From NCBI RefSeq assembly GCF_016124325.1, contig NZ_WGNY01000041.1, positions 35,627-99,626 on the forward strand: a stretch of 64,000 bases of DNA, given 5' to 3'. Within the stretch, counting starts at the first letter, position 1. Each line of letters opens with the position of its first letter. The notes under the pieces were generated by a model. It made no database searches and was not told the origin of the DNA. It worked only from the letters and a program-made list of their open reading frames with translations. The position numbers and the translations under genes were made by a program. Source of the DNA: Phenylobacterium sp. Lineage in GTDB: Bacteria > Pseudomonadota > Alphaproteobacteria > Caulobacterales > Caulobacteraceae. Shown here piece after piece: positions 22,714 to 29,394 of this stretch.

Positions 22714-23691
22714 ATGAACCTGAAGGACAGGATCAAGGCCCGGGTCCTGGCCTTCGACGCCGCCGCGCGGCCCTGGGCGGCGCGCGGGCCGCTGCACGCC
22801 TTCGCCTACGAGTTCCTGCTGTTCGGGCTGAAGCAGGCCTGGGCCTGCCTGTTCGGCGGGACGCTGGTGGCGCTGCTGATCGCCACCCGCCTCTTCTGGC
22901 CGCCCGACGCCCCGCTCGCCCGCTACGACCTGCTGGTCCTCTGCGCCGTGGCCCTCCAGGCCGGCCTGCTCGCCACCCGGCTGGAACACTGGGACGAGGC
23001 CCTGGTCATCGCCGTCTTCCACCTCGTCGGCACCGCCATGGAGGTGTTCAAGACCGCCCACGGCTCGTGGATCTACCCGGAGCACAGCCTGCTTCGCATC
23101 GGCGGCGTGCCGCTGTTCTCGGGCTTCATGTACGCCGCCATCGGCTCGTACCTGGCCCGCGCCTGGCGGCTGTTCGAGCTGCGCTTCGAACGCTACCCCC
23201 CGGTCTGGACCACCTGGGCCCTGGCCATCGCCGCCTACGTCAACTTCTTCGCCCACCACTACGTCATGGACGTGCGCCTCGCCCTCTTCGCCGCCTCGTT
23301 CCTGATGTTCGCCCGCGCCAGCTTCGTCTTCACGCCCGACCGCACGCCCCGGCGGATGCCCATGCTGCTGGGCTTCCTGCTGGTCGCGGTCTTCATCTGG
23401 ATCGCCGAGAACGTCGGCACCTTCACCGCCGCCTGGCGCTACCCCAGCCAGCACGACGGCTGGCGCCTCGTCCCGCTGGGCAAGCTGGGCGCCTGGTACC
23501 TGCTGATGCTGCTCAGCTTCGTCCTGGTCTCGGCCGTCCGCCGCCCCCGGCCGCCGGGGGAGGGCGAGGCCACCAATCCGCTGACGGCGCCGCGCCCTGG
23601 CGGGCCGTCCCACCCGCGCGAGCCGCCCCAGTCGCGCGCTCAGTCGCGCGCCTCGCGCTCCAGCTCCCCGGTCGCCGGGTTGCGCAGATAG
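22714..23691 (+). CDS. DUF817 family membrane protein
   Basis: [61 protein letters not shown]. Confidence 0.85.
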
Positions 23692-24419
23692 GCCACCACC
23701 TTCGTCGTTCCGTCGGCCTGGGTCTCGCGGCGGAACTCGCGCATCTGGAAGATCACCTGCGTCGGCCCCCGCGCGCCCGCGGCCCCCGCCGCCTCGGCCT
23801 CCAGCGGCCGCACGCGCCCGAACCGGGCCGGCGCCAGCGCCGCCGCCGTCCAGCGCAACTGCGACAGCTTCACGTGGGTGGCGTAGGCGTCCTTCGGCGT
23901 GATCCGCTGGGCGATCTCCCAGCCCAGGTCGCACATCCGCTCGGCCTGCGCCTGGCGCGCCAGCTCCAGGTCGGCGGCGAACTCGGGCCGCGCCGAACGC
24001 CACTTGTGCACCAGCGACAGCGACGGCATGTCCGGGTCGGCGCAGATGGCGCTCATCGTCTGGCCGTCGGCGATCCGCGAGCAGACCTCGGCCGCCAGGT
24101 GCGGACACCAGCGCGGCTTCCGCCCGCCCTCGCCGTGCCACCCCGCCGCGCGCCTCGCCCGCCCCATCGCCTCGGCGAAGGCCGGCAGGGTCCGGGCCCA
24201 GGCCTGCACGCTCGACCGGTTCGGCATGGCCGCGTCGCGGCAGATCGCGCGCAGCGTCTCGCCCGCCTCCAGCCGCGCGCAGACCCGCCGCGCCACCACC
24301 GCCGAGAACCGCACCGCGTTCGCCGGCCCGCCCAGCCGCCGGATCCTCGCTTGAGCCGGCCGCCGCTGCGCCGCCCGCTCCCCGTCTGGCCGCGCAGCCA
24401 CGCTCCGTCCCTCGCCCAT
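23640..24419 (-). CDS. Terminase small subunit-like (Sf6-type HTH) protein
   Basis: Two tandem HTH-like units: VCARLEAGETLRAICRDAAMPNRSSVQAWARTLPAFAEAMGRAR and VCSRIADGQTMSAICADPDMPSLSLVHKWRSARPEFAADLELAR. Confidence 0.7.
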   Translation of the reverse strand: MGEGRSVAARPDGERAAQRRPAQARIRRLGGPANAVRFSAVVARRVCARLEAGETLRAICRDAAMPNRSSVQAWARTLPAFAEAMGRARRAAGWHGEGGRKPRWCPHLAAEVCSRIADGQTMSAICADPDMPSLSLVHKWRSARPEFAADLELARQAQAERMCDLGWEIAQRITPKDAYATHVKLSQLRWTAAALAPARFGRVRPLEAEAAGAAGARGPTQVIFQMREFRRETQADGTTKVVAYLRNPATGELEREARD

Positions 24420-24553
24420 GGACGCCCTCCGCTCGGATTGTCTGGAATGGAATTTCTGGAATGGAAAAGGGCCCGGCGCAGACCGCCGGACCCTGACCAA
24501 AACCCTACCAGAACCCCGCGCCCCGCGCAAGAACAAAATAGGAACCAACCCGC

Positions 24554-24580
24554 TCATCCCGGCGAAGGCCGGGACCCAGA
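24554..24580 (+). repeat. Short dispersed palindrome, copy R5 (same family, shortened)
   Basis: catcccggcgaaggccgggacccaga. Confidence 0.5.
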
Positions 24581-24617: not shown

Positions 24618-25442
24618 CTAAGAGCGTCTCCGCCGACGCATGGCGGCGATTGTTCGCCGGCGGGTCTCCAACGAGTCGTCTTCGCCGGGCGCGCCGCCGC
24701 CGGCCTCCTCGCGCGGGGCTGCGGCGCTCAACGGAACGACCCCGAGTTCGCGCCACGCGAGACCGCCGCCGGGGCCTGCGAGCCCCACCTGCACGGGCGG
24801 CAATTGCTTGATGGCGAACCATGTGCGCACGGCGTCCGGCATCTGCTTTTCTTCCGTGCTCTCCAGCCGCAGCCGCGTGGCGAGCCGATGCGGGGTTCGA
24901 GCGACGAGGTAGGTCGCCTCGACGATGAGGTCAGCCACCCGTTCCGCGGTGGAGCAGGCGTAGAACAGCCAGGCGCGCATGAGGCGTTCGGGGATCAGGC
25001 GCTCGAAGGGCCGATCAGGGGGGAGGGACCCGATCCTGAGCTCAAGCCCCCGAAGCGTCGTGTGAGGTCGGGATTCCGGGGTGAGGTTCCAGAGAGCGCC
25101 TTCCAGGCCAATCTCGAACCAGTCCCCGAGATCGCGCGCCTGCAATTTCCCGGCGGCCGTCAGACCGAGGTCGATCCGCGGCGGATTTCGCCGATCAGGC
25201 CCGCCCGACAGCGTCTCGATCTGAAGGCTCAGCCGCACCTCGGTCGGCTCATGATCGCCCCAACGCCAGATCGCGACGTTGCTCGTGTGGGCCTCCGGCA
25301 TCTCGAACTTGCCCTGAGACGCGGCGCAATGGAGCTCGTACGGCGTGGTCAGGCGAAGGCTGACGTGTTCATCGGTCTTGACGAAGCGCTTCGGCTCCCA
25401 GGCGTTCCAGTCACCGAAATCAGTCGGGCCGCCTACGCCCAT
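24618..25442 (-). CDS. Hypothetical protein
   Basis: Long ORF with protein-like composition (MGVGGPTDFGDWNAWEPKRFVKTDEHVSLRLTTPYELH...); no family recognised. Confidence 0.6.
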   Translation of the reverse strand: MGVGGPTDFGDWNAWEPKRFVKTDEHVSLRLTTPYELHCAASQGKFEMPEAHTSNVAIWRWGDHEPTEVRLSLQIETLSGGPDRRNPPRIDLGLTAAGKLQARDLGDWFEIGLEGALWNLTPESRPHTTLRGLELRIGSLPPDRPFERLIPERLMRAWLFYACSTAERVADLIVEATYLVARTPHRLATRLRLESTEEKQMPDAVRTWFAIKQLPPVQVGLAGPGGGLAWRELGVVPLSAAAPREEAGGGAPGEDDSLETRRRTIAAMRRRRRS

Positions 25443-26311
25443 GGCGGACCCTCCGGGCCGGAGCCGCGCGGCAGCGCTCGCCACGCCTGACGACGTCGGC
25501 GCTGCTCGGCGGATCGACTGGACGGGGACGGTTGGGCGACGTCAATGATGCGGCTCTTCACAGGCGTTTCTCCTTAAGGAGCGCCTGTTGGCGACTGAGC
25601 GCCGCGCCAGACGCCTTCATTGACCATGACTGTGCACCAAGGCCCACGCCATTCAAAGGAACTTCATATTTCAATATCGAAACATAGATGGAGTTTAGAG
25701 TGTCGATCGGCTCACAATGAAGCCTTCCGGCATGCCGTGTGTGTGGAGATACCTGATCGACCCAAGTATTGACGCCTGAGCGCCAGCGCGCTGCAACTTG
25801 GGTGCAGTTGGAAGTTGAAGTCCCCTGTCTAAAAGATGTCACAATTTTCCATTTGTTCTCGGTTTGAGCTTTGATTCTAGGGGCTTCACGTCGCGCAAGT
25901 CTGACGTCTTGTCGCTCTGGCCGACAACACGCTGAGTCACTTGCATAGGTCTGCGGCTTGGCGGAAGTCGCTGGCGGGCGCGTCGGCTTCCGCTCGCTAC
26001 GCGCCCTCGTCCACGTCGACGAGCGCAGCCGCCTTCCTGGCTTGCGGGCCGCCATCTGACCGACTTCGCGCCCTCTCGACGCCCCAGGGCGACCGGTGGG
26101 TGGACGTGGCGGGAAATGCTCGCTTAAGCTGAGAGAATCCGGCGTTTTCGGACTTGGGGCACTGGGCGTTCAGCGTTCGCGAGAGAAGGCGCCGGTGGCG
26201 GGTCTACAAGGGGGGGAGAGCCATGGCGCGGAACGGCGCGGGGAGTAGGCTGCGTTCCGTCGGGGAAGACCCGCGGCCGCGCGCTCGGACGGATCTCGCA
26301 GGCCGCGGCGC

Positions 26312-28225
26312 TTGACCCGGATCATCGCTCTCGCCACCGCCTGGGGCTCGGCGCATGGCGGGATCAACGCGTTCAACACCGATCTCTGCGTCGGGCTCGC
26401 CCAGGAACTGGGGGACGCCGGCAAAGTCTATTGCGCGGTTATCGCGGGCGAGGGCAAGGCGGGCGAGGACGAGTTCAGGCTCGCGTACGAGGACGCCGCG
26501 CGGCAGGGCGTGACCCTGGTGCCGATCACGCGTCCCGACCGCGGCCAGGCGTTCGATCCCAGCTGGGCGCGCGAGGTCGCGGCCTGGCTCGAAGCGCATG
26601 GGGCCGAGGGCCATCCGAGCTACTGGATCGGCCACGATGTGAAGTCCGGCGAGGCGGCGCTGTTGGGCGCCCAGCTCACCAATGGCTCGGCCGCCCTGGT
26701 GGGCCACATGGCCTATCTGCTTTACGGCGGCCACAAGCGCGACGACGCCACGACCAAGCAGCATCAGGACCAGATGCGCACGTTCCGGAGCCGCGCTCAC
26801 GTGTTCGCCGTCGGTCCGCTGCTGCGAGATTGGCTCAGTGAAAGGCTCGATCGGCCGGTGACCATGCTGGTGCCGGGCTTCCCCACCCGGACCGAGCGGC
26901 CGCGGGCGCGGCGACGCCTCGCCGGCATCACCTTCGGCCGCCTGGGCGTCGACGACGACCGGATCAAGCAGGGCCGGCTCGCGGTGCTCGGCTTCGCCAA
27001 CGCGATCAAGGTGCTCTCCCTGACCCCGACGCACGCCGACCTGGTCAACGGCCACTTCTTCATCATGCTCGGCGTGGACAACGCGCGTCCCCAGGTGGAG
27101 GACCTCAAGCGGCGGGCGTTCGTCGAGGCCGGCCGTTCGGTGAACATGTTTGCCGAGCCCTATCAGATGGTCCGGCGCGACGTGTTCGACCGTGTCGCCG
27201 GCGCCAGTTTCGCGATGATGCTCTCGGTTCACGAAGGCTTCGGCCTCACCGCCTGGGAAGCGATCGGGCTCGGCGTGCCGGTGATCCTGTCGCGCAACAG
27301 TGGCGTTTTCCAGCTGCTCCAGGAGGCCGGCAGCGCTGCGGCTTCACGGGTTCGGGACATCAATGTACAGGGCCCTGGCGACGCGAGCGGGGAAAACCAC
27401 ACGCGATCCGATATCGAAGCCGTCTCCCGTGAGATCCAGGGGATCGCGCTCGACTTCGAACGCGCGTATCAAGACGCAGGCGAGCTCTACGGAATCCTCC
27501 AACAGAGGTACGGATGCACGTGGTCGGGAACCGCCCGGGCCCTGCTGGACGCGATGGCGGACGCGAGCCTGGCCGAGCCGAACCCCGAGCCGAATCCCGA
27601 GCCGGGCCGGCCGCCGTCGAGTTCCGGGCAGGCCCGCGGCCGCGACGCCGCGGTCGTCGCGGAGCGTCCCTGGAACGCCCATGCGGACCTCCTGGAGCTT
27701 GGCTTGAGCATCATGCAGGGGAGTGATCGGAGCCGCTTCGATCTAATGCCCGAGTTGCGGTGCACCGTGCTGTCTTTCCCGATGAGCGGCGAGCGCCAGG
27801 CGCGTATCGGCCTCACCGGTGTTCGCGTCAGCGTCCGGTGCGACGGGTCTGTGGAGATACTTCCGGGCAATCGTCTCGGAGACGATGGCGGGGCAAGCGA
27901 CGTGGTGGCGTGGTCCGGCGGTCGCTGGGACATCAGTGGTCCATGCGAGGAAGGCTTCCTGGCGCATCGTGTGCTGGGCCGGGACCGTCTGTGCGAGCTC
28001 GGCGCGCGTGACCACTTGCCAGGCGACGCAGCGGTCGAGGTCACCGCGGCGAAGGCCGAATTGGATGTCCGGCTATATGACCGGGATGGGCGGCGGCTGG
28101 CCCTGCCCGACGACACCCAGGCCGCACTGGGGCTCGTTCTCGGAAAGGGCCTGGGCGGAGGAAGCCGAATCCAGCTCGCCCGCGCGGGCGTGTCGGTAAA
28201 GGGAGCAGATGATGGTCCTGCCTGA
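26312..28225 (+). CDS. GT-B-like glycosyltransferase-type protein with uncharacterised beta-rich C-terminal region
   Basis: IIALATAWGSAHGGINAFNTDLCVGLAQEL N-term; SVHEGFGLTAWEAIGLGVPVILSRNSGVFQLLQEAGSAA typical GT4 C-terminal motif; EPNPEPNPEPGRP linker. Confidence 0.75.
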   Translation: MTRIIALATAWGSAHGGINAFNTDLCVGLAQELGDAGKVYCAVIAGEGKAGEDEFRLAYEDAARQGVTLVPITRPDRGQAFDPSWAREVAAWLEAHGAEGHPSYWIGHDVKSGEAALLGAQLTNGSAALVGHMAYLLYGGHKRDDATTKQHQDQMRTFRSRAHVFAVGPLLRDWLSERLDRPVTMLVPGFPTRTERPRARRRLAGITFGRLGVDDDRIKQGRLAVLGFANAIKVLSLTPTHADLVNGHFFIMLGVDNARPQVEDLKRRAFVEAGRSVNMFAEPYQMVRRDVFDRVAGASFAMMLSVHEGFGLTAWEAIGLGVPVILSRNSGVFQLLQEAGSAAASRVRDINVQGPGDASGENHTRSDIEAVSREIQGIALDFERAYQDAGELYGILQQRYGCTWSGTARALLDAMADASLAEPNPEPNPEPGRPPSSSGQARGRDAAVVAERPWNAHADLLELGLSIMQGSDRSRFDLMPELRCTVLSFPMSGERQARIGLTGVRVSVRCDGSVEILPGNRLGDDGGASDVVAWSGGRWDISGPCEEGFLAHRVLGRDRLCELGARDHLPGDAAVEVTAAKAELDVRLYDRDGRRLALPDDTQAALGLVLGKGLGGGSRIQLARAGVSVKGADDGPA

Positions 28226-29081
28226 GAAGACGCTGTCGGCCATGGAGGCCATCCTGAGGGCCGGCCCGGCCGACTTCATGACTCTGTGCCGCATCGCCGA
28301 CATCGATCCGCGCGTGGATTTCGCCCACGCCAACCTGCGGAACGTGGACTTCCGCGGCGGCGATCTGACGGGTTGCGACTTCACGGGGGCCGATCTCGAG
28401 AACGCTGACTTTTCCCGCGCGCGACTGGTCGATTGCCGGTTCGTCGGCGCCAACCTCAGGGCGGCGCGGCTTCTGGAGCGGGCGTTGCGGGAGAACGAGT
28501 TCGACGGGAACGCCGACGAAGACGTGCAGGTCGTCGCCCCGCCTGGCATCAGCGACCTGGGCCGCCTCAACCCAGACCTGCTGTTGGGCGAATGGGTGAC
28601 CTTTCCCCGCGAAGGTCGCGGCCGGATTCACGCCATCGAAAACCGCCCGATCGGCAACGATGAGATCAAGGTGCTGATCATAAAGCTCGAAAGCGGCGAC
28701 CCCGACCTGCCGCTCCCGCTGGCCCGCGCCGATGAGATGGGTCTCAAACGCATCGCCGCCCCGCCGGATCGGCTCGAGGATGCGCTGGCGGAGCTCGGCC
28801 GGCCGCCGCTCGGACCCGTCGACGCCACGGTGCTCGAGGATGTTCGTTCGAGGCTGACCTCTTCCGACCTGCTGGACATGGCCGTGGCGGTGCGGATGCT
28901 CTCCGGCCCGCCCGCGCGACCGATCCTCGCGGGCATGGTCGAGAAGCTGCTCGGGGTGGTGCTTGAACGGCTGGAACAGCTCGTCGCTCACCGGGCGGGC
29001 CTGGAGCAATCCGTCGCCCGTGGCCTCATCGAACGCCGGCGCCGAGGCGGCCGCGACGACGCGCCCACCGCCGGCCGGTAG
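28209..29081 (+). CDS. Pentapeptide-repeat protein fused to a CarD-like RNAP-binding domain
   Basis: DFAHANLRNVDFRGGDLTGCDFTGADLENADFSRARLVDCRFVGANL then LLLGEWVTFPREGRGRIHAIENRPIG...DLPLPLARADEMGLKRI and LTSSDLLDMAVAVRMLSG; overlaps 26312-28225 ORF by 17 nt. Confidence 0.72.
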   Translation: MMVLPEKTLSAMEAILRAGPADFMTLCRIADIDPRVDFAHANLRNVDFRGGDLTGCDFTGADLENADFSRARLVDCRFVGANLRAARLLERALRENEFDGNADEDVQVVAPPGISDLGRLNPDLLLGEWVTFPREGRGRIHAIENRPIGNDEIKVLIIKLESGDPDLPLPLARADEMGLKRIAAPPDRLEDALAELGRPPLGPVDATVLEDVRSRLTSSDLLDMAVAVRMLSGPPARPILAGMVEKLLGVVLERLEQLVAHRAGLEQSVARGLIERRRRGGRDDAPTAGR

Positions 29082-29394
29082 GCTCCCCCGCCGAGACGGC
29101 GCGAGGCCCCGGGTCGCGTCCCGGCTTCCGAGCCGGCCGGGAACGAGCCGCCTCCAGCTGGACGGCCTCGCCACCCCGACGGGGTTCGGCGGCGAGCCCA
29201 ACGCTTCGCGACCCCCATCTATCGTCGAGCGTCTGGTCCGAGCTCGCGGCCCAGCACGCGCTGTTGCCCTCGGACGAACGCCCAGCTTTCGCGCGGGCGC
29301 CCGGTGATCTCGGCGTCGGGCGACACGACACCCAATTCCGAAGAAGAATCGGTTCCCCTTCCGTTCGCTCCCGCCCGCCGCTAACCTCGCCTGC

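Follow-up and report, generated by a model that had tools for sequence, protein, structure and literature searches.

A pentapeptide-repeat protein fused to a wedge-less CarD-like domain overlaps a GT4-conflict glycosyltransferase gene in a Phenylobacterium genome

Two overlapping genes lie on the forward strand of a 64,000-nucleotide stretch of DNA from Phenylobacterium sp. (assembly GCF_016124325.1, contig NZ_WGNY01000041.1, positions 35,627 to 99,626; hereafter the window, to which all coordinates refer). The second of the two (28209..29081, +) encodes a protein of 290 residues in which pentapeptide repeats are fused to a CarD-like RNA polymerase (RNAP)-interacting module. The first (26312..28225, +) encodes a glycosyltransferase of the GT4-conflict kind, some 637 amino acids long from an uncertain TTG start; its last 17 bp lie within the fusion gene. 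The open reading frame (ORF) of the fusion is uninterrupted, and GC content by codon position is coding-like and continuous across its cap, repeat and CarD parts (0.91, 0.86 and 0.84 at third positions, GC3; ~0.46 at second positions, GC2); that of an antisense ORF (28041-29201) is not coding-like. As read from the sequence, a Shine-Dalgarno-like AAGGGAG (28199..28205, +) stands ahead of both ATG 28209 and ATG 28212; either is a likely start, and the latter, the second codon, fits it at least as well as the former.

The fusion protein begins with a helical cap (residues 6-35, 28224..28313, +), predicted by AlphaFold and carrying the motif F..L.....(D/N)P..DFA, which also precedes pentapeptides in two tandem Laspinema proteins. 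There follow 13 pentapeptides in clean register (residues 36-100, 28314..28508, +). That these are tandem A(D/N)LXX repeats forming a beta-helix is supported by Pfam (PF00805, E = 1.8e-14), by the register itself and by the AlphaFold model, which shows one bridge per ~5 residues after the cap. The initial annotation hinted that they might mimic DNA. We find no support for this and consider it unlikely: 13 repeats amount to about three coils, their net charge is -3, and the fusion scores ~12-21 bits against the curated MfpA and Qnr families, whose cut-offs are 240-500.

The CarD-like part comprises a Tudor-like RNAP-interacting domain (RID; residues ~125-184, 28581..28760, +) and a helical C-terminal domain (CTD; residues ~185-280, 28761..29048, +). 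With PF02559 (CarD_CdnL_TRCF) alone the fusion stays below threshold in Pfam (13.2 bits against a cut-off of 23, E = 0.095). Searching with phmmer, on the other hand, matches it to solved CarD structures in the PDB (E ~3e-4), to proteins of the CarD/CdnL type in almost every one of 60 relatives (E down to 1e-8) and to CdnLs in genomes of the class (E down to 3e-13). Against a profile built from 32 CarDs the whole fusion scores 39.9 bits, the RID alone 35.4 and the CTD alone 2.8, where the best of 20,000 shuffled sequences reaches 7.9. AlphaFold, run without templates but on an alignment that contained CarDs and thereby favours a CarD fold, models residues ~130-280 at a confidence (pLDDT) mostly above 90, including five high-confidence helices in the CTD. 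Comparing the model to the PDB with Foldseek returns 11 matches at E <= 0.001, all of them CarD/CdnL (E down to 4e-7, probability 1.00); for the RID alone, TMt is 0.88 at a root mean square deviation of 1.3 A. Both the fusion and the CarD RNAP-interacting fold from residue ~124 onwards, as initially annotated, are therefore real, and a Tudor-like fold is present in residues ~124-190. A helical CTD behind the RID, as found in the CdnL subfamily, is likewise indicated by the five helices and by CarD matches that span the whole length, its homology being suggested mainly by the collinear alignment and the model.

What the domain has kept and what it has lost can be read off by comparison with the normal CdnL encoded in the same genome (locus L002), which has V39, R52, P54, W90, R92, R93, Y127 and R130, residues studied under the same numbering in Caulobacter crescentus (PMC5324124). 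There, binding to RNAP-beta was lowered by V39A and by P54A but not by R52A, and DNA binding was lost in R92A/R93A (PMC5324124); the Thermus counterpart of W90 is the wedge that enters the minor groove in the open complex (PMC4593161). Two of the three RNAP-beta contact positions are kept in the fusion (V39 as V155, P54 as P170) and the third is changed (R52 to P168). Note that the V39 column holds V or L in most CarDs, so that its retention is weak evidence when taken alone. All five residues of the DNA-contact set are lost, W90, R92, R93, Y127 and R130 aligning with D205, T207, V208, G242 and E245, and although residue-level alignment is less certain in the CTD than in the RID, there is no Trp anywhere in the fusion's CTD.

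Because the Trp wedge and the basic patch are gone, ordinary CarD-like action of this domain, and with it normal CdnL activity of the fusion, is unlikely. Overall architecture might suggest a working CdnL-like activator that has merely acquired a pentapeptide domain, but we give this very little credence given that it lacks both a wedge conserved in more than 95% of CarDs (PMC4593161) and every basic DNA contact tested in Caulobacter. Instead, the pattern of residues suggests that the domain may dock on RNAP but cannot wedge DNA. Imagine that the fusion acts alone: it might fill the beta1 lobe without inserting a wedge, compete with the resident CdnL and lower CdnL-dependent (rRNA) transcription, in effect a growth brake, with the glycosyltransferase doing something separate. 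RNAP-contact positions that are mostly kept, DNA-contact positions that are lost and the normal CdnL encoded elsewhere in the genome would all be in keeping with such a competitor, as would the slower growth and slower rRNA transcription of Caulobacter upon CdnL depletion (PMC5324124). However, Caulobacter can do without CdnL at normal temperature (PMC5324124), and competition accounts for neither the overlap with the GT4-conflict gene nor the pentapeptide part. We consider it an unlikely explanation.

The upstream protein matches PF20706 from end to end (profile positions 2-385, E = 4.7e-66, 223.8 bits), its GT4 domain covering residues 6-411 with an E-x7-E motif at residue 308. The Pfam cut-off of 26 bits is permissive, and most genomes contain ordinary GT4s that exceed it; the best of these in 386 genomes of the class scores 74 bits. 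The C-terminal 217 amino acids (residues ~420-637; 27570-28222) match no Pfam family. GT4-conflict domains are predicted to serve counter-invader systems as effectors, and closely related GT4 domains of the same kind occur in the contexts of systems that carry an RNAP-docking GreA/B-C domain (Kaur et al. 2021, PMC8195603); pentapeptides, for their part, are listed among the scaffold domains of conflict systems (PMC7159879). GT4-conflict genes also lie on three plasmids, from Hymenobacter, Rhizobium and Robbsia, and those of Hymenobacter and Rhizobium are located near integrases, recombinases or transposase. The Rhizobium protein (L075:4980-8921, 1313 amino acids), annotated merely as a cobalamin-dependent protein, consists of a GT4-conflict-like part followed by what appears to be a B12-binding/radical-SAM enzyme.

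Tudor-like folds are versatile. It is thus conceivable that the domain in the fusion now binds some protein other than RNAP, such as the glycosyltransferase or that enzyme's substrate, and that the two proteins alter some part of the cell, for instance a surface polymer, in a role unconnected with transcription. The replacement of R52 by proline and other changes around the contact strand would fit, as would the variety of glycoproteins, lipids, sugars and metabolites targeted by characterised GT4 enzymes (PMC8195603). Two observations make us regard this scenario as distinctly improbable: RNAP-binding CarDs top the Foldseek ranking, and the glycosyltransferase belongs specifically to the GT4-conflict kind rather than to the ordinary GT4s from which its score sets it apart.

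Among the genomes searched, the pair is restricted to one. At the thresholds used, 101 congeners, 397 genomes of the order and 386 of the class yielded no relative of the fusion, those of the weaker class-level matches that were read being plain CdnLs. A pattern-based search of genome contigs with the full fusion yielded pentapeptide proteins only, none with CarD, and neither plasmids nor phages held a relative of it. Viral contigs and phages contained no relative of the CarD part, and plasmid matches to this part were alphaproteobacterial CarD-like stretches at 25-27% identity. The CarD ORFs taken from other alphaproteobacteria for comparison have 0-4 pentapeptide-like motifs each, against 11 in the fusion, and none of them is a fusion. 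At E 1e-25 the GT4 protein was found neither in the 101 congeners nor in 399 genomes of the phylum, and viral contigs contained no relative. For both proteins, the larger groups were sampled, and in the big ones scoring was confined to a few top candidates from each genome. The initial remark that no fusion of this type has been described agrees with the open-access literature, where we found none.

Another reading is that of a degenerate orphan of recent origin, in which a duplicated CarD or a fragment acquired by transfer became joined to a pentapeptide protein and which is drifting without a conserved role. Occurrence in a single genome, 20-26% identity to CdnLs and changes at 36 of the 49 conserved CTD columns speak for it. 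An intact ORF with coding-type composition throughout, a confident fold, retention of the V39 and P54 positions and overlap with an intact GT4 gene speak against it, and we deem this origin possible but unlikely.

The setting of the pair suggests accessory DNA. The pair lies in a variable spot, since DNA upstream of dinG varies among congeners while the dinG protein itself is kept (71-84% identical), and its GC3 of 0.83-0.85 is below the 0.89-0.98 of most neighbours. Different accessory DNA is seen upstream of dinG in congeners: one has an ORF that reads as transposase-like (L085:2-595) and another has AT-rich DNA (L078:2845-4284). The region upstream of dinG is possibly an insertion hotspot.

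Taken together, we favour, at a probability of roughly 40%, an accessory conflict cassette of two genes, with the pentapeptide-CarD protein tethered to RNAP and the glycosyltransferase as its partner. The first gene would supply the probable effector and the second a targeting and scaffold protein, whose CarD-type domain, to judge by the kept contact positions, would dock on the RNAP beta1 lobe while the pentapeptide solenoid and helical cap hold the partner or a trigger. With CarD's DNA-contact residues missing, a docked fusion would not be expected to make open promoters more stable; rather, the docked fusion might displace the cell's own CdnL, bring the glycosyltransferase to RNAP, perhaps to RNAP captured by an invader, or both. 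The CarD fold and homology, the V39 and P54 positions kept beside a lost DNA-contact set, the 17-bp overlap with a GT4-conflict gene carrying an E-x7-E motif and the accessory pattern (neither gene found in 101 congeners at the thresholds used, variable DNA upstream of dinG, lower GC3) are, together with the published precedents, the grounds on which we tentatively infer that the fusion binds RNAP, that the two proteins are partners, that they serve in defence and that glycosylation takes place at RNAP. The initial annotation had suggested a transcription shut-off effector or immunity switch; the latter gains support from the overlapping GT4-conflict gene, which it had not seen, and the former is no more than a possibility.

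Several points weigh against the cassette. The role of GT4-conflict domains is itself only a prediction in the literature (PMC8195603), and the three plasmid-borne GT4-conflict genes have no CarD neighbour. The R52 position is a proline, and the neighbouring RID columns M49 and V53 also differ. The pair is seen in one genome, so that conservation lends it no support. PADLOC matched no defence-system model, and the window yielded no integrase, nor did a repeat search return a clear boundary. The published cases of GT4 with GreA/B-C and of pentapeptides should be read by analogy, as precedent for the principle rather than proof for this gene pair.

The known role of CarD-type proteins is that of housekeeping regulators. 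A broader and more doubtful proposition is that wedge-less CarD-type domains have been recruited as RNAP docking modules in conflict systems, aiming a glycosyltransferase at the transcription machinery and possibly glycosylating RNAP or an RNAP-bound phage factor. A wedge-less CarD copy that shares an accessory cassette with a predicted immune glycosyltransferase would reveal a second, independent docking route by which RNAP is targeted, besides GreA/B-C. The gene pair also makes the targets of GT4-conflict enzymes accessible to experiment.

As to the surroundings, a 288-residue protein (24618-25484, -) has no Pfam match, is absent from the 30 relatives searched and shares the lower GC3 of the cassette; because of this resemblance the foreign stretch may start there and span 24618 to ~29350. 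Also close to the cassette lies a gene for a protein like the Sf6 terminase small subunit (23640-24557, -; PF20901, E = 1.3e-34). Between 25500 and 25999 GC content drops to 0.56, against ~0.70-0.75 around it, with no convincing gene. Scanning for promoters and terminators produced no result better than chance, and no tRNA lies in the window.

How does the pair relate to known systems? With CdnL/CarD proteins (PF02559; for example Caulobacter CdnL) the fusion shares the fold of RID and helical CTD and the V39/P54 contact positions. It differs in its N-terminal cap and pentapeptides, in a length of 290 residues where members of the CdnL subfamily stand alone at 160-200, in lacking the DNA wedge and basic patch, in its low identity and in being an accessory gene in a genome with a normal CdnL elsewhere. 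In Myxococcus CarD, too, a CdnL-type module is joined to a further domain, but in our case the addition is an N-terminal pentapeptide solenoid. The gyrase-protecting proteins MfpA and Qnr are also pentapeptide beta-helices, yet the fusion has a shorter repeat part, is near-neutral in charge and scores far below their curated cut-offs. The plasmid GT4-conflict proteins of Hymenobacter, Rhizobium and Robbsia similarly carry the GT4-conflict domain near the N-terminus but have other C-terminal parts and no pentapeptide-CarD neighbour. Analogous in principle are the GreA/B-C conflict systems (PMC8195603), whose proteins are also predicted to counter invaders, have an RNAP-docking domain and are found in contexts where related GT4 domains occur. 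These bind the coiled coil of the beta' secondary channel and come with TPRs and a PIN nuclease, whereas Pfam scans of the fusion and the GT4 protein reveal no GreA/B-C, TPR or PIN domain; here, a predicted beta1-lobe domain of CarD type is combined with pentapeptides, and the system is split over two genes.
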